This document shows, piece after piece, positions 4,957 through 21,394 of a stretch of 35,104 nucleotides of DNA. The translations under genes were made by a program, and so were the position numbers. Origin of the DNA: Acidithiobacillus sp. GTDB taxonomy: Bacteria > Pseudomonadota > Gammaproteobacteria > Acidithiobacillales > Acidithiobacillaceae. The stretch is taken from contig DAHXMJ010000051.1 in assembly GCA_027365525.1 (NCBI GenBank), positions 1-35,104 on the forward strand, written 5' to 3'. The notes beneath the pieces are model-generated. The model had not been told where the DNA came from. It saw only the letters and a program-made list of their open reading frames with translations, and ran no database searches. Within the stretch, counting starts at the first letter, position 1; each line of letters begins with the position of its first letter.

Positions 4957-6217
4957 ACGGTTCTGGATGCTTCTGCTCGCGCTCACAGGGTTCGGCATTG
5001 CACAGTCTTCACAGGCTGCACTCACGGTCGAAGTCACCAAAAGCGTATCTTCTACGCTACCCATCGCCATCCCTTCCTTTGGCCCGGGAGTCCCCGGACA
5101 GCCGTCGGTTGCCCAGGTGGTACGGGATGATCTTAGCCACAGCGGGATGTTCAACGTCCTGGCCCCCGCCACCTACCCCTCGGATCCGCACGGTCCTGGC
5201 GGCGTACAGGCAGGCCCCTGGGCTGCTGCGGGCGCCACGGGCCTTGCAGTAGGCTCCGTCATCCCGGAAGCCGGGGGATATGCTGTCAGCGTCTATGTCT
5301 ACAATGTGGCAACGGGGAAAGAACTGGCCGCAAAACGCTTCAGCTGCCCTGCGAACGAACTCCACATGACGGCTCACCATGTTGCCGACGCAATATATGA
5401 AGCCTTTACTGGCAAACCCGGTCCTTTTGCCCACCGCATTGCCTATGTCCGGAAACTCGGCCGCCAGTATGAACTGCTGGTTGCGGAATCCGATGGCTGG
5501 GACCCCCATGTGGTCGTCCAGGGACTAATGCCCATTTTTTCGGTAACCTGGTCACCAGACAACCGCAGTCTGGCCTATGTCACCTACCTGAATGGCCGGG
5601 CAACCATCTTTGTCCAGAACCTCGCTACCGGCCAGCGGCGGGCAGTTGCACCGGGTGGAGAAATTGTCAGCGCGCCGGCCTTTTCTCCTGGGGGTAACCG
5701 GCTGGCCTACGCCCGCGCACAGGGCGGGGAAACCAACATCTATACTGTCAGCCTGGCAACAGGACAGAGACAGCAGCTGACCCATGACCAGAGCATCAAT
5801 ACCTCTCCTACCTGGGCGCCAGGAGGCCAGCAGATCGCCTTTGTTTCTGACCGCGCTGGCAGTCCGCAGATCTACGCCATGGATAGCAGCGGCGGGAACG
5901 TTCGCCGCCTGAGCTACAGCGGCACCTACAATGCGGGACCGGTTTTTTCTCCAGCCGGGAATGCCATTGCCTTCATTCACCGGACCAGCGGCGTCTATGC
6001 CCTGGCTGTAATGAGACCGGATGGCAGTGGTCTCCGCATTCTGGATGCCCAAGGAAACTGCGACCATCCCAGTTTTTCCAGCAATGGCCAGATGGTACTG
6101 TATGGTACGGAACGGGGAGGACGGAAGGTCCTCGCCGAAGCCAGCACTGATGGAAAAACACTGGCCATCCTCCACAGCACCATGGGAGCCGACAGCCAGC
6201 CGGCATGGTCCCACTGA
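4949..6217 (+). CDS. tolB: Tol-Pal system beta-propeller protein TolB
   Basis: Signal peptide MAKRFWMLLLALTGFGIAQSSQA; repeated WSPDNRSLAYVT, FSPGGNRLAYARAQ, WAPGGQQIAFVSDRAGSPQIY propeller blades. Start placed at 4949 rather than 4886. Confidence 0.96.
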   Translation: MAKRFWMLLLALTGFGIAQSSQAALTVEVTKSVSSTLPIAIPSFGPGVPGQPSVAQVVRDDLSHSGMFNVLAPATYPSDPHGPGGVQAGPWAAAGATGLAVGSVIPEAGGYAVSVYVYNVATGKELAAKRFSCPANELHMTAHHVADAIYEAFTGKPGPFAHRIAYVRKLGRQYELLVAESDGWDPHVVVQGLMPIFSVTWSPDNRSLAYVTYLNGRATIFVQNLATGQRRAVAPGGEIVSAPAFSPGGNRLAYARAQGGETNIYTVSLATGQRQQLTHDQSINTSPTWAPGGQQIAFVSDRAGSPQIYAMDSSGGNVRRLSYSGTYNAGPVFSPAGNAIAFIHRTSGVYALAVMRPDGSGLRILDAQGNCDHPSFSSNGQMVLYGTERGGRKVLAEASTDGKTLAILHSTMGADSQPAWSH

Positions 6218-6262
6218 TCCGGTCTGGCCTGCCAGACCGCGAGCAACAGGTTTTTCCATCGC

Positions 6263-6284
6263 GGGGGCCTACATGCAGGCCCCC
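6263..6284. terminator. Candidate stem-loop between convergent tolB and queC
   Basis: GGGGGCC-TACATGCA-GGCCCCC perfect 7-bp GC stem in the convergent intergenic gap; no strong T-tract, so terminator function is tentative. Confidence 0.4.
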
Positions 6285-6295
6285 TGCTTCCAGGC

Positions 6296-6979
6296 TCAGA
6301 TATATGGTGTGGGATCAGGAATTCCGGCCTGGATGAACCCTTCGCTGCGGAGGCGGCAGCTGTCACACCGACCACAGGAACGTCCTTCCCGGTCCAGTTG
6401 GTAGCAGGAACGCGTCAGCCCATAGTTCACGCCAAGCTGGCTGCCCAGACGGATGATTTCACTTTTGCGCAGGAACTGCAGGGGTGCATGGATCCGCATG
6501 GTCCGGCCTTCACTTCCAGCACGGGTGGCCTGGTTGGCCAGTTCCTCAAACGCCAGTACAAAACCAGGACGGCAGTCCGGATAGCCGCTGTAATCCTGGC
6601 TGTTGACCCCCACAAAAATGTCCTGGCTTCCCAGAACTTCAGCCCATGCCAGGGCAATGGACAGAAATACGGTATTGCGCGCAGGAACATAGGTGAGCGG
6701 GATACCGCCGCCCCTTTCCTCACCACCACCTTCAGGGACGGCAAGACTCTCATCCGTAAGTGCCGATCCGCCGATGGCCCGCAGGTCCAGGGGAAACACC
6801 CGGTGGCTTTCCGCTCCCAGTATCTTGGAAATCTGCTGTGCGTAGCGCAGTTCGGCGGAATGGCGCTGCCCGTAATCGAAGGAAAGGGTATGCACGGCAA
6901 AACCATCACGGCACGCAAGAGCCAGAACGGTCGCGGAATCAAGACCACCGGAAAGCAGTACCACAGCTGGCCTGCGCAT
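6296..6979 (-). CDS. queC: 7-cyano-7-deazaguanine synthase QueC
   Basis: [18 protein letters not shown] (PP-loop), [26 protein letters not shown]. Confidence 0.96.
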
Positions 6980-6997
6980 GGGTCCTCTCCCTTCTTC

Positions 6998-7639
6998 TCA
7001 GTGCCCAGGTTCATCCCCCCAGATCAGCTTGTGCAGCTGGATCTGGAGGCGGACGGGAAGCCGGTCTGCAAGTATCCAGGAAGCCAGGTCCCGAACCGGC
7101 AGCTGGGTGTATGAAGGCGAAAGCAGGATCTCGCAGCGGTCCCACAGCTGGTGTTCTTCCAGAATTTTTCGGGCCCACTCATAGTCTTCCCGGCTGCAGA
7201 GGACCATTTTTACCTGGTCTCCAGAACCGAGAAATCCCAGGTTGGGCCAGTAGTTCCGTACCACCTCTCCGGAACCGGGTGTCTTGAGGTCCAGAATTTT
7301 GATAACCCTAGGGTCGACCTCTGCCACAGGAAGTGCACCGCTGGTCTCAAGGTATACCTCATGTCCGCGGTCGCAGAGGGCCGAGAGGAGACCATGGACT
7401 TCTGGCTGTGCCAGGGGCTCCCCACCAGTCACAACCACCAGCCGGCAGCCATGCGCGGCTACCTGGTCCAGAATGGCGTCTATCTCCTGCCATTCCCCGC
7501 CATGGAAGGCGTAGGCCGTATCACAGTACTGGCAGCGCAGGGGGCAGCCGGTCAGGCGCACAAAAGTGGCTGGCCGGCCTACACTCGCCGTTTCCCCCTG
7601 AAGACTACAGAAGATCTCTGTGATGCGCAGCCGGGACAT
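6998..7639 (-). CDS. queE: 7-carboxy-7-deazaguanine synthase QueE (radical SAM)
   Basis: EIFCSLQGETASVGRPATFVRLTGCPLRCQYCDTAYAFHGGEW...VVVTGGEPLAQ; adjacent to queC. Confidence 0.96.
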   Translation of the reverse strand: MSRLRITEIFCSLQGETASVGRPATFVRLTGCPLRCQYCDTAYAFHGGEWQEIDAILDQVAAHGCRLVVVTGGEPLAQPEVHGLLSALCDRGHEVYLETSGALPVAEVDPRVIKILDLKTPGSGEVVRNYWPNLGFLGSGDQVKMVLCSREDYEWARKILEEHQLWDRCEILLSPSYTQLPVRDLASWILADRLPVRLQIQLHKLIWGDEPGH

Positions 7640-7645
7640 GACAGA

Positions 7646-8488
7646 TCAGTGGGACAGGGCCTGCAGTTCAGCCTGGGCCCTCTGAGCGGCCGGGGTTCTT
7701 GGATATTTCTTCAGCACCAGGTTAAGTGCAGACCTGGCCCGCCCTGGCTGGCCCAGGGACTGGTAGATCTCGGCAATACGCAGCAGCGCCTCGGGCGCCT
7801 TGCTGCTCTGCTGGTAATTCTGGACAACGGTTTCCAGGCTGCCGATGGCAGCCTGGTTCTGTCCGAGAACGTACTGGGCCTGACCGAGCCAGTAATAGGC
7901 ATCCACAACCAGGCTGCTCTGGGAATACTGCTGGATAAAACCCTGAAGTGCGGTCACGGCTGTGCCATATTTTCCTTCCCGCAGATAGTCGAACGCCCTA
8001 GCGTACTCTTTCTGTCCAAGGCCCTGAACTACGGGGGCAGACGCACTGCCGGCGGCCGAGGTTACAGCCTCTCCCGACAGGGCTGGGGCGACAGCTGCGG
8101 GCCCCTGTGCGGGGGCGCTCCCCGTACTGGCCGTCGCGGCAGTTGCCGCACCCCCGCCCATCGCGGCCACAGTCGCGGCCAGGGCATCCAGTTTGGTACT
8201 CATGGCTGCCTGGCGGGTTTTCAGGTCATGCGTGCGCGTTTCCAGTTCTCCCCGCAGGTTCCGGAGTTCCTGGTCCATGCGCTGGTAACGGTTCAGGAGA
8301 TCCCCCAAGGCAGTCTGGCTTCCCCGGCTAGCTTTCTGGATGGCGATCAGGCTGTTCAGCTCCCCCTGCATGACCGCCACCTGCTGCTGCAGCTGCCGGA
8401 TTTTTGCCCGGGAAGACTCGGCGGATGCCCATGGGCTCGCCATAAGGAGTGCGGCAGCTGCCACACAGGACACCACCCTGCGTTTCAT
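7646..8488 (-). CDS. cpoB: Tol-Pal system protein CpoB/YbgF (coiled coil + TPR)
   Basis: Signal peptide, coiled coil, C-terminal YARAFDYLREGKYGTAVTALQGFIQQYSQSSLVVDAYYWLGQAQYVLG repeats; next to pal. Confidence 0.93.
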   Translation of the reverse strand: MKRRVVSCVAAAALLMASPWASAESSRAKIRQLQQQVAVMQGELNSLIAIQKASRGSQTALGDLLNRYQRMDQELRNLRGELETRTHDLKTRQAAMSTKLDALAATVAAMGGGAATAATASTGSAPAQGPAAVAPALSGEAVTSAAGSASAPVVQGLGQKEYARAFDYLREGKYGTAVTALQGFIQQYSQSSLVVDAYYWLGQAQYVLGQNQAAIGSLETVVQNYQQSSKAPEALLRIAEIYQSLGQPGRARSALNLVLKKYPRTPAAQRAQAELQALSH

Positions 8489-8503
8489 CCGCTGGAAACC
8501 TCC

Positions 8504-9085
8504 TTACTGTCCCTGATAGCCGCCGCTGTACACGAAATCCACACGGCGGTTCCGTGCCCAGCAGGCCGAATCGTTCTGTGCACAGAGCGGGTTGTCCTTG
8601 CCAAAGCTGACCGTGCTGATGCGTGTTCCGCTTACTCCCTGGGATTCAAGATACTGCTTGACCGTCTCGGCACGCCGCTCGCCAAGAGCAAGGTTGTATT
8701 CCTGGGTTCCCCGGGCATCCGTATTCCCCTCCAGGCGTACCTTGACATGGGCGTGGTTCATCATGAACTGGGCGTTCTCCGCCGCAACGGTCTGTCCATT
8801 CGCATCCATGCTGTCACTGTTAAACCCGAAGTGGACCCGGAGATGGCGTGGCAGTGCCGCCAGCTCTGCCGCTGTCAGGCCACTGCTCCCCCCACCTATG
8901 GGGCCGTTGTTGCCCAGGTTCTGGGATCCGACTCCCGCGCCCGCATAGCCAGATGTCCCTGCAGAAACCCCAGGTGCCACGGGCCCCACGCCCCCGGGAG
9001 CGCCACTGCCTACATTGCGTGCACAGCCTGCCAGGGTAACGACACCAGCTGCCACCAGAATCACGACGGTATTCTTGAATTGCAT
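8504..9085 (-). CDS. pal: Peptidoglycan-associated lipoprotein Pal
   Basis: Lipobox VTLAGC; OmpA-like domain VHFGFNSDSMDANGQTV...VRLEGNTDARGTQEYNLALGERRAETVKQYL. Start set at MQFKNTVVILV. Confidence 0.95.
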   Translation of the reverse strand: MQFKNTVVILVAAGVVTLAGCARNVGSGAPGGVGPVAPGVSAGTSGYAGAGVGSQNLGNNGPIGGGSSGLTAAELAALPRHLRVHFGFNSDSMDANGQTVAAENAQFMMNHAHVKVRLEGNTDARGTQEYNLALGERRAETVKQYLESQGVSGTRISTVSFGKDNPLCAQNDSACWARNRRVDFVYSGGYQGQ

Positions 9086-9414
9086 TTGCGCTGCTCCTAA
9101 AGCAGGATGGCATGAAAAATCTGCCCCTGATTGTATCTTGCCTCCTCCCGCAAGGGCAATTGTTTCCGGGTGCAGGCCGTCCCGCACAGTGGCTGTCTTG
9201 ACATGGAAGCGCGCCCTGATATGGTGGGCTTCGTTTATCCGTATCCGGATACCCGATGGCGATCCCGGAGAAAGCCCGCCGGGGACGTGGGTGGGCGTCC
9301 GGGCCGGCCCCCATGGACCAGGATAGTCTGACTAGAGGAGGAGCGGGACCAGGGTGGTCTGTGGCCACCGCGCTATCCCTCCCCGGCATGTGTCCGGGGT
9401 TTCCCGCCAGCAGG

Positions 9415-10338
9415 ATGGACCGATCGGTTGTGCGCATTGGAACCCGCGCCAGTCCCCTTGCCCTGTGGCAGGCGGAACATGTGCGTGCGGAACTGCTGTC
9501 CCGGAATCCGGGTCTCGCGGTGGAGCTCGTCTCGATGACTACTGCCGGTGACCGCCATCTCGATACCCCCCTCCAGCTGGTGGGAGGAAAAGGGCTTTTC
9601 GTCAAGGAAATCGAAACCGCCCTGCTCGCGGGGGAGGTCGACCTCGCTGTCCACTCCATGAAGGACGTTCCCTCTGTCCAGCCAGAAGGCCTCGAACTGG
9701 CAGTCATTCTGGAGCGGGAAGATGTCCGGGATGTCCTTGTCTCCAACCATTACCAGGCCCCATCCGGACTGCCTGCAGGTGCGCGGGTCGGGAGTTCCAG
9801 CCTGCGCCGCCGTGCCCAGCTTCTTCACCAGTTCCCCCATCTTGATGTCCGGGACCTGCGCGGCAACGTTGCCACACGGCTCCGCCATCTGGACGGCGGT
9901 GGCTGGGATGCAATTATCCTGGCAGCCGCCGGTCTGCTGCGGCTCGGTCTTGCAGAGCGTATAGCCGGATACCTGTCCATTGAAGATTCCCTCCCCGCTG
10001 TTGGACAGGGCGCCATCGGGATTGAAATCCGCGCTGAAGACTCTGCCACCCGCCGTCTGGTCCACCCCCTGTCCCACCATCCCACAGAGTGGTGTGTCCG
10101 GGCAGAAAGGGCCATGAACCGGATACTCGGAGGAGACTGCCGTCTGCCCGTGGCCGCGCTGGCCCGGTGGAAAGGGGAAAGCATGGAGATGGAAGGACGC
10201 GTAGCCAGCGCGGATGGCCTCAGACTCCTGACTGCCAGAGCCACTGGCGATGATCCGGACACCCTTGGACAGACCGTGGCAGACTGTCTGCTGGCACAGG
10301 GAGCCGGCCAGATTATCCAGGAAATCCACCAGGCATGA
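9415..10338 (+). CDS. hemC: Hydroxymethylbilane synthase (porphobilinogen deaminase)
   Basis: MDRSVVRIGTRASPLALWQAEHV...GLFVKEIETALLAGEVDLAVHSMKDVP...GGDCRLPVAALA. Start set at 9415; upstream extension looks non-coding. Confidence 0.96.
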   Translation: MDRSVVRIGTRASPLALWQAEHVRAELLSRNPGLAVELVSMTTAGDRHLDTPLQLVGGKGLFVKEIETALLAGEVDLAVHSMKDVPSVQPEGLELAVILEREDVRDVLVSNHYQAPSGLPAGARVGSSSLRRRAQLLHQFPHLDVRDLRGNVATRLRHLDGGGWDAIILAAAGLLRLGLAERIAGYLSIEDSLPAVGQGAIGIEIRAEDSATRRLVHPLSHHPTEWCVRAERAMNRILGGDCRLPVAALARWKGESMEMEGRVASADGLRLLTARATGDDPDTLGQTVADCLLAQGAGQIIQEIHQA

Positions 10339-11126
10339 ACAGGCCTCTTCTGGACAAGGGGATCGTGGTTACCCGCCCCATGGAACAGTCTACGGAACTG
10401 GTTTGCCTGCTGCAGAAGGCTGGTGCACGGGCTATTACCTTCCCGGCGATACGCATTGAGGCCCCGGAAACGTGGCACTCCCTGGATGGCGCGCTGGATC
10501 ATCTGGCCCGGTTTTCGTGGGCCATTTTTACCAGCCGGAATGCCGTCCATTTCGCCCTCAGCCGCTGGCAGGGGCGTGAATTTCGGGTCCCATGGCCATC
10601 TACCGTCCGGATCGCTGCCGTGGGGCGGGAAACTGCCAGGGCACTGCGAGAATTTGGGGTTGAGGTCCACCTGGTCCCGGATCGCTTCAGTTCCGAGGGC
10701 CTACTGGAAATTTCTGATCTGCAGGATGTTGCGGGCCTGGAAATGGCCATCTTCGCCGGCGACCAGGGCCGGGAGCTTCTTGAGACCACGCTGCGGCAGC
10801 GCGGGGCTCTGGTGGAAAAGGTCTTCTGCTACCGCCGGACCGTCCCCGGTGCAAATCCCACTCCGCTCCTTCACGCTTGGGCCCGGGGCGAACTGCACGC
10901 TGTCACGGTGACAAGCCCAGAAATTTTCAACAATTTTTACCAGATGGTAGGAGGACTCGGACAGCGCTGGCTGAAAAATACCCCCATTATTGCCATCAGC
11001 AGCCTGACCGCCGAGGCCGTTACCAGCAAGGGGCTTCCCAGTCCATGGACCGCTCCCGAAGCAAGCAACGCGGGGCTCCTGTCAGCACTGGAAACCTGGA
11101 CAGCATCTTTGGAGAAAAACGCATGA
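10335..11126 (+). CDS. hemD: Uroporphyrinogen-III synthase
   Basis: GIVVTRPMEQSTELVCLLQKAGARAITFPAIRI...AIFTSRNAVHFAL...VTVTSPEIFNNF; directly after hemC. Confidence 0.9.
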   Translation: MNRPLLDKGIVVTRPMEQSTELVCLLQKAGARAITFPAIRIEAPETWHSLDGALDHLARFSWAIFTSRNAVHFALSRWQGREFRVPWPSTVRIAAVGRETARALREFGVEVHLVPDRFSSEGLLEISDLQDVAGLEMAIFAGDQGRELLETTLRQRGALVEKVFCYRRTVPGANPTPLLHAWARGELHAVTVTSPEIFNNFYQMVGGLGQRWLKNTPIIAISSLTAEAVTSKGLPSPWTAPEASNAGLLSALETWTASLEKNA

Positions 11127-12956: not shown

Positions 12957-14312
12957 TTATGAGGGGGCATGCAAACGGGCACTCTTGCCATCCGCCTGAA
13001 GTTCCAGTTCCTCAAGGGAAACCCGGCGGGTTTCCAGAGCAAAAACACGGGTCACAATTACTGCAACCAGGGCTACGCCAGCATTCAGCAGCAGCAGGTC
13101 CGCAATACCCCATCCGCGCTCCAGAAGGGGAAAAAGAAGCGCTGAAAATACCGCTCCAAGGCGGGATGCAGCAGTAGCCATCCCAGCCACCGTGGCACGC
13201 AGATGAGTGGGGAAAAGTTCGACCGAAAGGGCAAAAACCGTCACGGCCGGACCCAGCCCCAAACCCATGGCATAGAGCGTGGCGCCTGCGTACACGGCGG
13301 CTGGCAGGTGCCAGGCGACAGCCCCCCCAAAAATTGCAAGCCCACAGGACATAAGCAAAAAACCTGCTGTCTGCAATGGAATTCGGCCCCAGCGGTCCAC
13401 ACGCGGAAGAATGAACACAATGCAGGAAGCAGAAACAGCAAGGAACAGGGCATTGATGGCGGCAGCCGATTCCTGGCTGCCAGCCAGCCCGTATTGCCGC
13501 AGAACGAGGGGAAAATACAGCGCAATGCCCAGACTCACAACGTCCAGAAAAAACCAGGGCAGAACAGCCAGCCCGAGACGCCGGGGCCAGGGAGACCGCA
13601 GCAGCCGGGCCATGGAAAAACTCTCTCCCCTATAGGATCCCAGATGGGTTTCCAGCGCTTCGGTGGTAAGTTCCGGGCGAATGGCCTTCAGGGCCTCTAC
13701 TGCTTCCCTCCACTGCCCCCTGCGGACCAGCCATCGGGGTGATTCCGGCAGCCCGCGGCGAAGCCAGAAAAGAACGGCGACCGGAACCACGGCACTGCCC
13801 AGCATCCAGCGCCACGAGCCAGACCCCATGGACAGCAGCATCCAGCCGACCAGGGTCGAAACCAGCGCTCCTGCGAACCACGCAAGGTTGATCCAGGCAA
13901 AACCACGCCCCCGGGTCATGCTCCGCCCATATTCTGCAACAATGGTAGCAACAAGGGGATAATCAAGGCCAATCGCCAGCCCAGTCACGAAACGGGCGGC
14001 ATAAAGACTGTCCAGGTGGAGGCTCAGGGCACTCCAGACCGCTCCCGTTCCGTACAGCAGAATGTTGGGCAGCAGAAGACGCCGCCTTCCAAAACGGTCT
14101 GTTACATATCCACCCAGAAGCCCCCCGGCAAAGGAGCCAGCAAGAGCGGCCGCCATCAGGGTCCCGGTCTGGCCAGCTGTCAGGTGCCAGGCTCGGGAAA
14201 GGGGCAGCAGCACAACGGCCATAATGCTGAGATCGTAGCCATCCAGCAGCATTCCCAGCATCGAGGCTGCCAGCGCCTGCTGCTGCACGGTATACGGTTT
14301 CCTGTCCAGCAT
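12957..14312 (-). CDS. MFS transporter, sugar/metabolite:H+ symporter type, phosphate:H+ symporter-like signature
   Basis: 12-TM-like protein with DGYDLSIMAVVLLPL, GGYVTDRFGRRRLLL, GLAIGLDYPLVATIVAEYGRSMTRGRGFA. Start set at 14312, preceded by GGGGAG on the minus strand. Confidence 0.85.
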   Translation of the reverse strand: MLDRKPYTVQQQALAASMLGMLLDGYDLSIMAVVLLPLSRAWHLTAGQTGTLMAAALAGSFAGGLLGGYVTDRFGRRRLLLPNILLYGTGAVWSALSLHLDSLYAARFVTGLAIGLDYPLVATIVAEYGRSMTRGRGFAWINLAWFAGALVSTLVGWMLLSMGSGSWRWMLGSAVVPVAVLFWLRRGLPESPRWLVRRGQWREAVEALKAIRPELTTEALETHLGSYRGESFSMARLLRSPWPRRLGLAVLPWFFLDVVSLGIALYFPLVLRQYGLAGSQESAAAINALFLAVSASCIVFILPRVDRWGRIPLQTAGFLLMSCGLAIFGGAVAWHLPAAVYAGATLYAMGLGLGPAVTVFALSVELFPTHLRATVAGMATAASRLGAVFSALLFPLLERGWGIADLLLLNAGVALVAVIVTRVFALETRRVSLEELELQADGKSARLHAPS

Positions 14313-14449
14313 GCCACTCCCCAGTCCACATTCCACCGCAAAAAACCAAAAGCCCGCATAAAAAGCAACTGGCCCAGATCCGTCCCTGCCGGCAACCCAT
14401 CACGCCGATCTGGCACCAGTCATATTCTACTGCCCGCTCAAACGGCAGA

Positions 14450-14467: not shown

Positions 14468-14565
14468 CTTGCCAGAGAACTGCACAGGTACAATTAGTAC
14501 AGGCTAAAAAATAACCCAGGCACACTCACATAAAAGTTATCGTTTAGACAGGCTTCTGTCAGGAA

Positions 14566-14583
14566 TTTTCACACCACTGTCAC
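14566..14583 (+). promoter_or_regulatory. Candidate Pho box upstream of the TonB-dependent receptor
   Basis: TTTTCAC-ACCA-CTGTCAC, two 7-mers with 4-bp spacer, preceded by a third copy CTGTCAG at 14556; TAGTTT (weak -10) begins 10 bp after the box at 14594. Confidence 0.45.
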
Positions 14584-14742
14584 AATGAGGTGGTAGTTTA
14601 CATGATTGCATAAAACCAAGTACACCATTTGGCAGATATGCACAAAGTTGAAGCAAATCAGGATCATCTGCAACAGTCTTAGGTTTAAGTGAGCTGTCAT
14701 AATTACTTAACAGGGCCGCAAAATAGCTAGAGGATCTTTACA

Positions 14743-17157
14743 ATGCTACACAGAACACCAACAAAAAAGGCAGTAACACTAACCGTAATATCCGCAATCG
14801 CAGTACTGGCTTCATCAGGAAACGCGACTGCAGATGGCACGCCTGCGAAGCCGCAAAAAAAACACCCAACAAAAACTACATATGTTGGGAGCGTAAGTGA
14901 TACATCGACAGCAGAAAAAAATTCCACAACAGCCGGTTCGGCCTTTACAAACAGGGTGTTGACACACAAGCAGATTTTCAAATCAACACAAAGTCTCGGA
15001 ACTGTTACAAAAAAACAGGCAAAAATATTTGGCCCTAACGCCAGTTCGTCAGAGGCATTAAGCATTTTGCCAAACGTTTTTATTAGCGGTCCTGACGGAA
15101 GCGGTGTATCCAACCGGTCAACAATTTCAATACGCGGCATACAGGTTGGCGTAACATCGTATAGCGGAAACCTGGAATACAACGGAATTACAGGACTGTT
15201 TGACGGCATTCCGATCCAGAATCTGGATGAAGGAAAAAGTTTCCACACTGTGGAAACACCCATAGGTGCACTGCTCAGCGGCATCAACACGATTTACGGA
15301 CCAGGAAACCCACAAAACAGATGGTTTGACAGCCTTGGCGGAACAGTAAATTTTATTCCTGTGCAGCCAGGCCGGCAGGCAAAAGCTAAAGCGGCCTTTT
15401 CATATGGCAGTTTCGGATCAAGAATTATTACCGCTTCTGCCGGTACCGGGCAGATTGATGGCTGGTCAGCCGTCATAGCAGGAGCCTATGCTCATGGACA
15501 CAGTTTCCGCAGCGGAACATACCTGCCAAGCCACACAGACCAGCTTTTCTTCAAGGCAAGAAAACACTACCACGGAACAACATACAGTTTTGGCGCATAC
15601 TACGACAGAAACAGATCCCTGCGCCCAAACCAGATCCCATTGTACCCGGTGCAGGGCGCAACACTAAATGGCCTGCCCAACGGAGTGCCATATAGCCAAA
15701 ACACTACGGGTTTTTACTCTACACTGCCATATTCAGTTTGGCACAAAAACGATCAGGAACACATGTTTCTTCTCTACGGGCGGCAGCATACGCACATCGC
15801 ACGACATGTTGCGCTAACCAATGAGATGTGGTACAGAAATAGCGTATTGCACCATTACAGCGTAAACTATTTTTATCCACCAAACAGCCGCTCGGCTGCC
15901 CAGATTACCAACTGGTATACAAATACGTACGGCGACAAGCTGGACTTTGACGTCAAACTCCCAATGAACACGATCGGATTTGGCGGCTATGTTATAAATG
16001 CAAATACCAATGTCAATGGTTACTCTGGCAACAATTCCATGGGATACACGATTCCAACAACGATCGGCGGACCAGGAAATCCCCGCCAGGTCGTAGATCA
16101 CACCTACACGGAAACATACGCATCAGGATTCATTCAAGACCGGATTACCCCAATGAAAGGCCTCAGCATTGTGCCGGGCCTGGATTTTATGGATTTCCAG
16201 ACGCATTTCTTCCAGAATGGCCCAGCACTCGCTGCAGACTATCCGAATGACACCAGCCTTCAATACAGCACGTCACCGAGCCTGGCAAAGGAATTCCAGA
16301 GACTTGAACCATCCGTAGGCGTAAATTATGCGATAACAAAAAGCGTGGCAATTTACGGCAGCTACTCTGTAACCTACCAAAATCCAACTGCCGGAAACTA
16401 TAATGCAGCAGCAGGACCGCTGACCGATCTGGGAACGCTAAAGCCTGTCCGCAGTAACGACTACGAAATTGGGGCCAGGTTCAACAAGAAGGGGTTCCTT
16501 GGGCTGGACGATGCGTTTGCCGACATTAACTACTTTAATGACAAGCTAAGCAATGAGACAATTCCAGTTACCTCTCTGACAAATCCGCTATACACAATAT
16601 TTAGTTATGGTACCGCAGTACTGAATGGTGTCAATCTCTCAATTGATGCCAAGATCAACAGAAACTGGTCTGCGTTTAGCAATGTTGGAGTTATTCACGC
16701 ATACTATACAAAATATTTTTCAACAGCAGACAATCTTTCATACAATGGTGCTCCTGTATCAGCAACACCAGATGCTACAGCGAATATTGGGGTCAGTTAC
16801 AGCACGTATGTACCGGTGGCAGATACAAAATTTACGGCTACCGTTTTCGATCAATACACCGGTCCACAGTATATTTTTAACAACAACACTGGCGCACCAT
16901 CATTCCACCAGACGATTGGCAGCTACGATATTGTAAACCTAAATCTTGAAGCAAGGACAACAGCACTGGACGGGATTATACCCGGGGTACGGTATTCGAC
17001 CCTGTCGCTGAACATAACCAATCTGTTTAATCGGAAATACAATTCGACAGGGAATATTACTGGCGGAGGATATTTCAATACCAATGCATCCGGATATGAA
17101 ATTGTCAACCCGGGTGAGCCAAGAGCTGTGTTTGGTACGCTGGCTTTCTCGTTCTAG
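14743..17157 (+). CDS. TonB-dependent outer-membrane receptor
   Basis: Signal peptide; plug-like NVFISGPDGSGVSNRSTISIRGIQVG; GINTIYGPGNPQNRWFDSLGGTVNF; C-terminal SLNITNLFNRKYNS...EPRAVFGTLAFSF ending in F. Confidence 0.9.
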   Translation: MLHRTPTKKAVTLTVISAIAVLASSGNATADGTPAKPQKKHPTKTTYVGSVSDTSTAEKNSTTAGSAFTNRVLTHKQIFKSTQSLGTVTKKQAKIFGPNASSSEALSILPNVFISGPDGSGVSNRSTISIRGIQVGVTSYSGNLEYNGITGLFDGIPIQNLDEGKSFHTVETPIGALLSGINTIYGPGNPQNRWFDSLGGTVNFIPVQPGRQAKAKAAFSYGSFGSRIITASAGTGQIDGWSAVIAGAYAHGHSFRSGTYLPSHTDQLFFKARKHYHGTTYSFGAYYDRNRSLRPNQIPLYPVQGATLNGLPNGVPYSQNTTGFYSTLPYSVWHKNDQEHMFLLYGRQHTHIARHVALTNEMWYRNSVLHHYSVNYFYPPNSRSAAQITNWYTNTYGDKLDFDVKLPMNTIGFGGYVINANTNVNGYSGNNSMGYTIPTTIGGPGNPRQVVDHTYTETYASGFIQDRITPMKGLSIVPGLDFMDFQTHFFQNGPALAADYPNDTSLQYSTSPSLAKEFQRLEPSVGVNYAITKSVAIYGSYSVTYQNPTAGNYNAAAGPLTDLGTLKPVRSNDYEIGARFNKKGFLGLDDAFADINYFNDKLSNETIPVTSLTNPLYTIFSYGTAVLNGVNLSIDAKINRNWSAFSNVGVIHAYYTKYFSTADNLSYNGAPVSATPDATANIGVSYSTYVPVADTKFTATVFDQYTGPQYIFNNNTGAPSFHQTIGSYDIVNLNLEARTTALDGIIPGVRYSTLSLNITNLFNRKYNSTGNITGGGYFNTNASGYEIVNPGEPRAVFGTLAFSF

Positions 17158-17173
17158 CATTTCATTATCACCA

Positions 17174-17208
17174 CATTCCCCCCGACCATATGCCATCGGG
17201 CGGGAATG
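17174..17208 (+). other. Intercistronic hairpin between TonB receptor and sulfotransferase genes
   Basis: CATTCCCCCCGA - CCATATGCCA - TCGGGCGGGAATG pairs over 12 bp with one bulge; no following T-tract. Confidence 0.6.
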
Positions 17209-18891
17209 GCCTGTCTCCTGTTTGCTTTTAACACCTTCAAAATGAATTCCAGCACTCACAGTTTAGGCGATACCGCACTGCTTGAGGTTGAGCAGGCTTT
17301 AGAAAATGGCAACACCGGGAAGGCAGAGTCTGTCGCTGCACACCATCTTGGCCGCATTAAATCTCCTCCAGCAAGGTGGTTTTATTCTCTGGCCATGATT
17401 TATTACAGGTACAGCCACTACCGGGAGGCTGCACAGCTGTTTAACCGTGCCTTTGCCCACGAACCAGACAATACTTTATACGGCATACAGCTCGTCCGCT
17501 GTTTCCAGCTACTGGGATTTTACCAAAAATCTGAATCCATTTTGTTAACTCTGATGCAGATTGAACCAGACAACAGCACCATATTATTTCTCCTTGCAAT
17601 CTGCGCAGACCAGGCTGGCGATCATGCCAGGGCTGTCTGCCTCTCAGATCGGGCAATAGCCACAAACCCAGAAAATGCTGAAATAAAATTTTTCAAGGCT
17701 TCTGTGCTTCTTAATTCTGGTTCTCCAGCGCTGGCGCTTCAGGTTCTTGACAACATCGCAGACGGGGATCAGTCATCCCCCATTGGAACTGCCCTGCGCT
17801 CAGCAGCATTAGAACGGGCTGGCTGCTATCAGGAAGCCCTGTCTATCCTGCCTGAATGCACATCTGATTCTCAGAGCTATGCGCAGATGTTAGCCTATGG
17901 TCGCGCCGTACTGCACTGTGATGACGGAACCGTACAAAAAGCATATGGAAAACTTAAATGCTGGGCTTCCAGGAATGAAAGTGTTATTTCTGGAAATCAG
18001 GAAAAATCGGCTGTTGCTTTTCTTTTGGGTGATCTTGCAGACAGATGTGGATTGTACGAAGCTGCGTATTCTTACTACAAGGATGCAAACAGGTTTGCTT
18101 ACCCTGGAGAATGGAATAGAAGCGAAACAATATCGTTTGTAAATTCCTGCATGGGTTATTCGCCAAATACAATATCCGGTATTTCAGGTGCCCAGAAACT
18201 GGTTTTTATTGTCGGCATGCCCAGATCGGGCTCATCCCTTCTTGAGAAACTGCTTGTTGTTGGTGGTGGGATGTCCGGGCATGGAGAGAGCGCCAATGTC
18301 AGCCGTCTTGTACGCAAAATTACGGACGGCGTGGTCGCTGAATATCTTGGAACATTGGGCCAGCTAGACCAGGCTTCAGTACTTTCTCTCGCCGAACAGC
18401 TTCTTCTGGATTATGGCCATGCAGGAAAAACAGCTATTCATGTAGACAAGATGCTGTTCAATTTTCAGTTTTTGCCACTAATCCTTAAACTTGTCACAGA
18501 TGCACTGGTTATCCACATTGTGAGAGACTATAGGGATGTAGCACTTTCATGTTTCATGAAGCCTTTCTCTGGCCACCATCCATACAAAAGATCAATATCC
18601 GATATTGTATTCCAGTACCGTGTGCAGAATAAAATCATGAACAGATGGAAGCAGCTGTTTCCCTGCAACATTATTACAGTATGTTATGAGGAACTTGTAA
18701 CATCGCCTTCCATGATTCTGCCAAAAATTGAAGATTTTTTAGGCATATCTATTAGTCATGATCTGGATGCCATTTGTAAAACAGAGACCAATTGTGCGAC
18801 ATCCAGCTACGCACAGGTCAGGCAGCCTCTCTATCAGACTTCTGTTAGCCGTTGGCGCAATTATGAGAAATTTATGGATTTTGAATTTTAA
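17206..18891 (+). CDS. Tetratricopeptide-repeat sulfotransferase family protein (start could be 17242)
   Basis: N-terminal TPRs (ARWFYSLAMIYYRYSHYREAAQLFNRAFAHEPDN); 5'-PSB-like VFIVGMPRSGSSLLEKLL; 3'-PB-like VRDYRDVALSCFMKPF. Confidence 0.88.
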   Translation: MACLLFAFNTFKMNSSTHSLGDTALLEVEQALENGNTGKAESVAAHHLGRIKSPPARWFYSLAMIYYRYSHYREAAQLFNRAFAHEPDNTLYGIQLVRCFQLLGFYQKSESILLTLMQIEPDNSTILFLLAICADQAGDHARAVCLSDRAIATNPENAEIKFFKASVLLNSGSPALALQVLDNIADGDQSSPIGTALRSAALERAGCYQEALSILPECTSDSQSYAQMLAYGRAVLHCDDGTVQKAYGKLKCWASRNESVISGNQEKSAVAFLLGDLADRCGLYEAAYSYYKDANRFAYPGEWNRSETISFVNSCMGYSPNTISGISGAQKLVFIVGMPRSGSSLLEKLLVVGGGMSGHGESANVSRLVRKITDGVVAEYLGTLGQLDQASVLSLAEQLLLDYGHAGKTAIHVDKMLFNFQFLPLILKLVTDALVIHIVRDYRDVALSCFMKPFSGHHPYKRSISDIVFQYRVQNKIMNRWKQLFPCNIITVCYEELVTSPSMILPKIEDFLGISISHDLDAICKTETNCATSSYAQVRQPLYQTSVSRWRNYEKFMDFEF

Positions 18892-19659
18892 ACAGCCAGC
18901 AACGTGCTGCATGATAACTGCTAAGCAACTTTGACAAAGCTGCCAGGGGGATCTGCGAGGACTTGCAAACCAGACAGAACTTTTGGCCCGCCGTACCTGT
19001 CTGGGGTTCCTGCCTTCTGGCTGGTTTAATTTGCCGCACGTAGTACCCGTAGTGATCTCTACATAACACAGCTTGTGGATTGGAACTGGAGACAGGCATG
19101 CCTGGACAGCAGATGGTTTTTTTAGGGGAAACTGGAATATTGGAAGTTCTTGGGATGACCCGGAGGAGGGTGGTGGGGGCGAGTGCATCATGGCTTCGTG
19201 TATTCGCGATGGTTGGCTCCTGCCCCTCCTGCGGGACGTTCTGCAGTGACCGGGATGCAATCGCACCAGGGGTGTGCAATCCTTTTGGGGGACAGGACCA
19301 TCATGCGGCCGCTCAGCATAGGCACCATCCAGGACAAAAACACCCCGCTGAAAATCCTGGAGTGTACCGGTAATCACCAGATTTTTGTGTATGCTGGCGA
19401 GGCACACGCGGTATATGTCTACCAGTAAGAAGCGGTAGACGTCCCTGCTGTCGGCCAGCCCCAACCTGTTGGTGAGAGCACGCAGGAACCGGATGGGATA
19501 TGCCGGGAGCCGGCGCAGGATCCGGGATTTTCTGCCAGGCCGGCCCGTCCTGTCATGCTGACGGCTCCTGACTTCCTTACTGTGCAACCAGTATCACCGC
19601 GAGACAAACCAGGGCTTCCTTAAAAGCCAAACACAATAATGCCATGGAGAGTCATCGGT

Positions 19660-19677
19660 ATTTCACGCTTCTGTAAC
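19660..19677 (+). promoter_or_regulatory. Candidate Pho box plus -10 upstream of the phosphoesterase operon
   Basis: ATTTCAC-GCTT-CTGTAAC (5/7 and 6/7 to CTGTCAC, 11-bp periodicity), exactly 10 bp before TATACA at 19688. Confidence 0.5.
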
Positions 19678-19825
19678 ATGCCAGTGGTATACATGTGGGA
19701 TAATCGCAGCCTGTATCTGGCCGCACCATGGGTTTCAGACAGATGCAGCTGAAGACAGAGCCCAGGGATACCGTTGGCACTCCCGGGTTCGGTGCATTCC
19801 CTACAATTTTCGTGAGGTGTAACCA

Positions 19826-21394
19826 ATGACTATATCGAGAAGATCATTCCTCAAGACCCTTGGAGCTGCCGCAGCAGCTCCCATGGTTCCAGGCTTTATT
19901 GGGATGGCGAAGGCTGCAGGTGTATCCCACCTCAACCGGCTGCGCGACAACATCGATCATATCATTGTGATTTTTCAGGAAAACCGGTCGTTCGACCACT
20001 ATTTTGGCACCTTCAGTCCACGCAATGGGCAGCAGGTGACCAATCTGCTGGACGCGTCGGGGAAAATTGATTCCCGGTTTCTGGGTCTGCAAAAAAATCC
20101 CGCCGGGATCCCCTATACGGTTCTGCCGACGCCCAAGGACATTATCGGGTTTCAGGAGGCTGAGCTGCCCAATGCGCCGTTTCATCTCGCACCCTATATC
20201 CCCGCCAACGACAATGTGCATTGGGATCCCAAACATCGCTTCTTCCGGATGTCAGCGCAGATCAACAACGGCAAGATGGATCGCTTCGTGGCATTGGCCA
20301 TGGGCGACCATCGGCATTTGTCCCGTACCCAGCTGGAAAAATATGTATCCCAGCGCATTGAATTTGATTTGGCGCATCCAAGCGGGCCGGTCCTGGGACA
20401 CTACATGGCGCAGGACATCCCCTTCTACCACCAGGTCGCACGCGAATACGTCCTTTACGACCGGTTCTTCCAGGCCATGTCCGGTGGATCTACGGGTAAT
20501 GCCCTCTACCTTGCGGCTGCCCGGTCCTGTGTTAATCCGAAGGCCCCGGCAGATTCCCGCAGTCCCTTCGATCCCAAGGCTGCAGGTCTGGAGCATTCCT
20601 TTTTTGATCTGCCCTACGATCATAACGGTATTCTGATAAACGATCTCTCTCCTACACAGGGTCCTACCGGCGCCAACCAGCCCCATGCCCTGCGCCTTTC
20701 ACCTCCACCGGAATTCCAGACGTACCAGAATATCGGAGACCTCCTGAACGTAGCCAATGTGGACTGGGCCTGGTACAACGAGAACTGGAATCAGGTGAAG
20801 CCTTGGGCTCTCAAGACAGCTTTCGGTCCTGATGATGGCTCTGCCGTCATCGACACCGGGCGTCTGTATGAAGCTCACCACAATCCTTTTCAGTACTACG
20901 CACGCTGGCCCGAATATGTCAAAAAAGGCCACATCCGGAGTACCGAAGATTTCCTGGATGATGCAGCGTCGGGCAATTTGCCAGGTTTCTCCATGGTCAA
21001 GGCAACGGCCGCCCATACTGAACACCCGGCGGACTGTGCGCCGGTATTCGGCATGGACTGGGTTGAGAAGCTGGTTCGGGCCCTGGCATCTGGCCCTGCC
21101 TGGCACCGCACAGCCATCTTCATAACCTACGACGAGGGGGGTGGTTTTTGGGATTCCGTCCCTCCCCCCCAGGTCGACGGCTACGGATTTGGGACCCGCA
21201 TCCCCGCGCTCCTGATCTCCCCCTGGTCAAGGCAGGGTTTTGTGGACCATCACATCTCCAGCACAGCCAGCATTCTCAAGCTGGTAGAAACCCGTTTTGG
21301 ACTGTCCCATCTCAACCATCGGGACCGGGATGCCTACGATCTGCTGCCATCCTTTGACTGGGATCAGAAAGGACCAAAGCCCTTTCGCCTGTAA
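19826..21394 (+). CDS. Tat-exported phosphoesterase family protein (PF04185-like; phospholipase C / acid phosphatase AcpA type)
   Basis: Twin-arginine signal SRRSFLKTLGAAAAAPMVPGF; DHIIVIFQENRSFDHYFGTF; MSGGSTGNALYLAAA; FITYDEGGGFWDSVPPPQVDGYGFGTRIPALLISPWSRQGFVDH. Confidence 0.9.
   Translation: MTISRRSFLKTLGAAAAAPMVPGFIGMAKAAGVSHLNRLRDNIDHIIVIFQENRSFDHYFGTFSPRNGQQVTNLLDASGKIDSRFLGLQKNPAGIPYTVLPTPKDIIGFQEAELPNAPFHLAPYIPANDNVHWDPKHRFFRMSAQINNGKMDRFVALAMGDHRHLSRTQLEKYVSQRIEFDLAHPSGPVLGHYMAQDIPFYHQVAREYVLYDRFFQAMSGGSTGNALYLAAARSCVNPKAPADSRSPFDPKAAGLEHSFFDLPYDHNGILINDLSPTQGPTGANQPHALRLSPPPEFQTYQNIGDLLNVANVDWAWYNENWNQVKPWALKTAFGPDDGSAVIDTGRLYEAHHNPFQYYARWPEYVKKGHIRSTEDFLDDAASGNLPGFSMVKATAAHTEHPADCAPVFGMDWVEKLVRALASGPAWHRTAIFITYDEGGGFWDSVPPPQVDGYGFGTRIPALLISPWSRQGFVDHHISSTASILKLVETRFGLSHLNHRDRDAYDLLPSFDWDQKGPKPFRL

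Follow-up and report, generated by a model that had tools for sequence, protein, structure and literature searches.

A putative PhoB-dependent, activator-type Pho promoter within a phosphorus-scavenging locus precedes a TonB-dependent receptor gene of Acidithiobacillus sp. at positions 14566–14599, a reading to which we assign a probability of about 0.9 on the basis of sequence analysis. Positions refer to the window, i.e. the whole stretch of 35,104 nucleotides that was analysed. Read directly from the window, the promoter (subsequently designated P1) consists of TTTTCAC-ACCA-CTGTCAC-AATGAGG-TGG-TAGTTT. The relevant features of the locus are:

14556–14562, forward strand: CTGTCAG, extra copy, 10 bp from half-site 1 and outside the 11-bp register
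14566–14572, forward strand: P1 half-site 1 for PhoB (predicted), TTTTCAC; half-site score 5.66
14577–14583, forward strand: P1 half-site 2 for PhoB (predicted), CTGTCAC, 11 bp after half-site 1; half-site score 8.46
14591–14599, forward strand: P1 extended -10, TGG-TAGTTT, 7 bp 3' of half-site 2
14694–14700, forward strand: CTGTCAT, isolated half-site in the predicted 5' leader; half-site score 8.54
14743–17157, forward strand: TonB-dependent receptor, 804 aa; beta-barrel PF00593, 8e-31
17206–18891, forward strand: TPR-sulfotransferase protein, 48 bp after the receptor gene; PF13469, 1.6e-25, and TPR
19649–19693, forward strand: P2, second Pho promoter (predicted), GAGTCAT-CGGT-ATTTCAC-GCTT-CTGTAAC-ATGCCAG-TGG-TATACA, comprising three half-sites at 11-bp intervals and then an extended -10; composite score 18.9, rank 3
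19826–21394, forward strand: Tat-exported phosphoesterase (AcpA acid phosphatase / phospholipase C family); PF04185, 1.1e-75, and PF10518
21460–22044, forward strand: cytochrome b561-like membrane protein; PF01292, 9.4e-7, 29.2 bits versus a curated cut-off of 30.1 bits
22048–23391, forward strand: histidine acid phosphatase / AppA-like phytase; NF007552, 1.4e-60, below cut-off; PDB phytases matched down to 1.7e-48

Architecture of the predicted receptor promoter

A Pho box, in the definition used here (PMC4415409), consists of two 7-bp direct repeats at 11-bp spacing and is followed about 10 bp downstream by the -10 element. P1 has both the repeats and the -10, the latter in a position matched to the aligned pstS promoters of relatives, with which half-site 1 also aligns in register. 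The TAGTTT hexamer (14594–14599) lies 10 bp past CTGTCAC and carries a TG extension at 14591, while a recognisable -35 element is absent and the Pho box sits in its place. The motifs CTGTCAG, TTTTCAC, CTGTCAC, TAGTTT and CTGTCAT, which had been listed in an earlier note on this DNA, were confirmed at their window coordinates. The classical Pho box geometry claimed there, an 11-bp pair with TAGTTT 10 bp further on, is borne out, and the same half-site/-10 design recurs in the pstS promoters of 24 non-redundant relatives. The TG of the extended -10, P2 and the phosphatase/phytase surroundings had been overlooked in that first reading.

The earlier note had described a triple repeat, of which the two copies at 14566 and 14577 stand in 11-bp register. 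The third one, CTGTCAG at 14556, starts 10 bp ahead of the next copy and is hence off register; the heptamer that would fit the register, at 14555, has a score of -18. P1 is therefore a double rather than a triple box, and CTGTCAG is probably no PhoB half-site. Similarly, the further half-site reported at 14694 is present as CTGTCAT and scores 8.54 alone, but its in-register neighbours are poor (-2.4 and 2.3), no matching -10 accompanies it and the composite score amounts to 3.4. It falls downstream of the predicted transcription start, and a second box at this place is unsupported by these values.

Genome-wide scores and the pstS promoters

The genome, a 62%-complete assembly of 1.37 Mb that is grouped in one family (Acidithiobacillaceae) with Acidithiobacillus ferrianus and A. 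sulfuriphilus, encodes PstS as well as PhoB (309 bits, over the cut-off), and a PhoR gene (PF11808) adjoins the PhoB gene. For the DNA-binding domain of this PhoB, the best alignment is that with E. coli PhoB (1.6e-31), the recognition-helix stretch being nearly identical. The upstream regions of pstS in the family contain between two and five repeats of the TGTCAY type in 11-bp register, followed by seven bases and then mostly by TGNTA. In the genome's own pstS promoter (CACGAACTTCTGGTAGGTT) and in those of the relatives, the extended -10 is found at equal spacing and in near-identical sequence to P1, as seen from GAGTCAC-GAACTTC-TGG-TAGGTT upstream of the own pstS versus CTGTCAC-AATGAGG-TGG-TAGTTT in P1.

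P1 was scored with several matrices on a sample of about 410 kb of the own genome, composed of stretches some of which had been chosen for receptor paralogues or pattern matches, and genome-wide pattern searches were carried out in addition. An independent E. coli matrix, built from published PhoB ChIP sites (PMC3465305), placed P1 at rank 4 of 818,902 positions and at rank 2 when the spacer was ignored, with a null probability per position of 5e-7 to 5e-6 for the spaced pair. A pstS-trained 18-bp model including the AAAA spacer gave P1 only a modest 7.8 (rank about 15). This matrix was dropped as too pstS-specific, and spacer-free and composite models were therefore adopted. The composite matrix, comprising half-sites and -10 with spacers ignored, was trained on 24 non-redundant pstS promoters from other genomes only, one of which (L073) is misaligned. 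Among 818,134 positions of the same sample, P1 ranked first with a score of 24.7, followed by a receptor paralogue (19.7), P2 (18.9), the own pstS promoter (18.5) and another receptor paralogue. Measured against the background, as the earlier note had envisaged, P1 thus comes first or close to first in the genome and, with the composite model, scores above the pstS promoter. As a negative control, the upstream regions of phoB yielded 0/27 hits. On the minus strand, a search for a Pho promoter serving the divergent MFS transporter gene (12957–14336, reverse strand) gave nothing that scored, the best value being -6.5; the transporter itself has sub-threshold matches to aromatic-acid/H+ and phosphate:H+ symporters.

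The entire 1.37-Mb assembly contains only two perfect matches to the pattern TKTCAY-N5-TGTMAY-N7-TGNTA, whose degenerate positions were settled when both P1 and P2 were already known, and both (14567–14595 and 19661–19689) lie in this window. With up to 2 mismatches the own assembly has 10 matches versus 0 for a backward control, and with up to 1 mismatch the 29 family genomes have 295 versus 9 (hand-summed). Could the repeats have come together by chance, the intergenic region being AT-rich? Single heptamers do occur at chance frequency, CTGTCAC alone being unremarkable with 5 copies in the window versus 3.67 expected, and the copies at 14556 and 14694 are off register. However, with the -10 in the model nothing in a total of 8 Mb of random sequence reached P1: the maxima were 15.7 in 4 Mb of genome-like sequence and 19.3 in 4 Mb with intergenic dinucleotide content, as compared to 24.7. 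Together with the location of the genome's two perfect composite matches, both at the P1/P2 locus, this makes coincidence highly improbable. The Pho regulation of the receptor promoter postulated by the earlier note is hence supported by the score, by the presence of PhoB, PhoR and PstS genes and by the likeness to the pstS promoter.

Pho and Fur sites in the receptor family

In the window receptor the plug domain PF07715 was not reported at 1e-3, whereas it is present in the paralogues of the own genome, and no relatives were found in the PDB by sequence. The orthologue of Acidithiobacillus ferrianus is 71–73% identical. Four relatives (L136, L137, L138 and L140) have kept the pair of receptor and TPR-sulfotransferase genes, and in L138, L139 and L140 the receptor has phosphoesterase genes in its neighbourhood. 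The TPR-sulfotransferase has no evident part in a phosphorus locus. Upstream of the orthologous receptors the promoter design is preserved to different degrees: it is strong in the MAG G010 (23.9) and comprises four repeats in G009, while the two closest orthologues (A. ferrianus and a MAG, 71–75% identity) have degenerate boxes (10.9 and 10.3) with a correctly spaced -10 or extended -10, and the MAG orthologues in L138 and L140 (61–62%) have a simple dimer only.

When the upstream regions of 90 TonB receptor homologues were scored with the composite matrix, 52 reached at least 10 and 49 at least 14, whereas none of 352 control windows, which were of equal length and taken from random stretches of two relatives, reached 10; the 90 upstream regions are not independent events because the genomes are related. 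Judging from sequence motifs, several of the Pho-negative receptors appear to be located behind an exbD-like gene and may belong to operons. In the own genome, a further Pho-like site (L160, 5202–5235; 16.6) precedes a TonB receptor gene (5288–7600) and a gene (7619–10408) for a large PF04185 phosphoesterase that also matches NHL repeats weakly.

Receptors of this type have been annotated in the literature as iron transporters, some of them linked to phosphatase genes (PMC2631029), and accordingly the window receptor might be a Fur-regulated Fe(III)-siderophore receptor, the Pho-like repeats being secondary or coincidental. No strong Fur box was detected in the window receptor promoter, where the best match agrees with the consensus at 12 of 19 positions. 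Within the family, matches of at least 14 of 19 are rare (2/90 receptor upstream regions versus 0/200 controls), and at a threshold of 13 of 19 the excess is modest (19/90 versus 12/200), so that Fur boxes are not clearly enriched upstream of the receptors. As the Pho architecture, in contrast, far exceeds chance, we consider regulation by Fur instead of PhoB improbable.

Two orphan proteins whose sole domain is a C-terminal, DNA-binding Trans_reg_C domain are encoded next to TonB receptor paralogues (L042, 3617–4516, reverse strand; L047, 4220–5134, forward strand). Pho-like sites are present upstream of both genes, and the proteins could possibly act as second-tier regulators. Direct repeats are bound by OmpR-family regulators in general, and another member of the OmpR/PhoB family, for instance such a winged-helix protein, might thus occupy P1 in place of PhoB. 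This, too, is unlikely: pstS, the classical PhoB target, has the identical architecture family-wide, the recognition helix of the orphan proteins (NTLAVRIYRLRR) differs from that of PhoB, and no orphan Trans_reg_C gene was found adjoining the P1 locus. Control of P1 by PhoB remains the preferred reading.

The phosphatase genes, the proposed mechanism and known systems

P2 lies 5 kb downstream of P1 and precedes the phosphoesterase, cytochrome b561 and phytase genes. It has zero mismatches to the composite pattern, and its -10 is spaced as in P1. The region between the sulfotransferase gene and P2 (18892–19648, about 750 bp) is without a convincing gene. The phosphoesterase combines PF04185 (255.5 bits) with a Tat signal (PF10518), and its PDB matches comprise the acid phosphatase 2d1g and phospholipases C. 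Its homologue in A. sulfuriphilus is preceded by a comparable promoter (22.1), and a weaker one (10.0) is found upstream of the b561 homologue in A. ferrianus. In the phytase-like protein GHDVN is present, but RHSVRSP replaces RHGxRxP (Gly to Ser) and the match reaches 205 bits versus a cut-off of 585; owing to the altered catalytic motif its activity is uncertain. Fragmented phytase matches beside the orthologous receptor of A. ferrianus (L137, 3990–8210) suggest that the phytase gene has decayed there.

The following account of PhoB binding, the response to phosphate, the start site, the operons and the receptor substrate is inferred from these sequences. When phosphate is scarce, PhoR would phosphorylate PhoB, a head-to-tail dimer of which would occupy TTTTCAC-N4-CTGTCAC in the -35 position and recruit sigma-70 RNA polymerase to the extended -10 (TGGTAGTTT). 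The transcript would begin near 14606 and run through the TonB receptor gene and then the TPR-sulfotransferase gene, while P2 would drive the phosphoesterase, cytochrome b561 and phytase genes. The exported phosphatases would cleave organic esters to yield phosphate, and the receptor would import a phosphorus-bearing ligand, e.g. an organophosphate or a ferric-phosphate complex. In bioleaching cultures phosphate matters, and ferric iron can precipitate it. A point against this account is that many sites of E. coli PhoB are transcriptionally inert (PMC10294691), although those are intragenic.

Extended to the family, the data tip the balance slightly towards a receptor clade of Acidithiobacillaceae that is mainly PhoB-controlled and serves phosphorus acquisition, in the form of organophosphates or ferric-phosphate complexes. 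Many "Fe(III)-siderophore" receptors of Acidithiobacillus are probably phosphorus-acquisition receptors, as judged from their upstream regions. The great number of TonB-dependent Fe(III) systems in acidithiobacilli, in spite of abundant soluble iron, has been remarked on (PMC2631029). If our reading is true, PhoB-controlled phosphorus receptors would help to explain the many receptors in iron-rich acidophiles, and the Pho promoters predicted upstream of over half of the receptor relatives examined, together with the lack of a clear Fur-box enrichment, offer phosphorus as a testable answer to this great number. That a TonB receptor may be under Pho control is not in itself a new idea, since it is contained in PMC2631029 and in the PhoB regulon of Caulobacter crescentus (PMC11208175); a demonstration at the promoter level in Acidithiobacillaceae was not found in the literature searched.

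In the E. coli pstS, phoA and phoB promoters, as in P1, a pair of 7-bp direct repeats separated by 4 bp stands about 10 bp ahead of the -10. The first half of P1, TTTTCAC, is similar to the phoB box of E. coli (TTTTCATAAATCTGTCAT; PMC3465305). The spacer is ACCA in P1 but A-rich in E. coli, and the conserved extended -10 (TGN) is a feature of Acidithiobacillaceae unlike the E. coli Pho promoters. The PhoB regulon of C. crescentus likewise includes TonB-dependent receptors, a phytase, phosphatases and Pst, a likeness of content and not of orthology; the organism belongs to a different class, and its PhoB control was established by experiment, whereas P1 and P2 are known from sequence alone. Closest in context are the Acidithiobacillus receptors FhuE1, FecA3, CirA2 and CirA3, which adjoin AcpA-type or PhoD-type phosphatases and for which control by PhoB, on the grounds of co-localisation, and by Fur was suggested in 2008, the receptors being treated as Fe(III) transporters (PMC2631029). 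They come from the same bacterial group and have phosphatase neighbours as found here, the comparison being one of context and not of orthology. Those receptors, however, were read as Fe(III) uptake systems with Fur boxes, whereas among the receptors analysed here Pho promoters are predicted and Fur sites show no clear enrichment.
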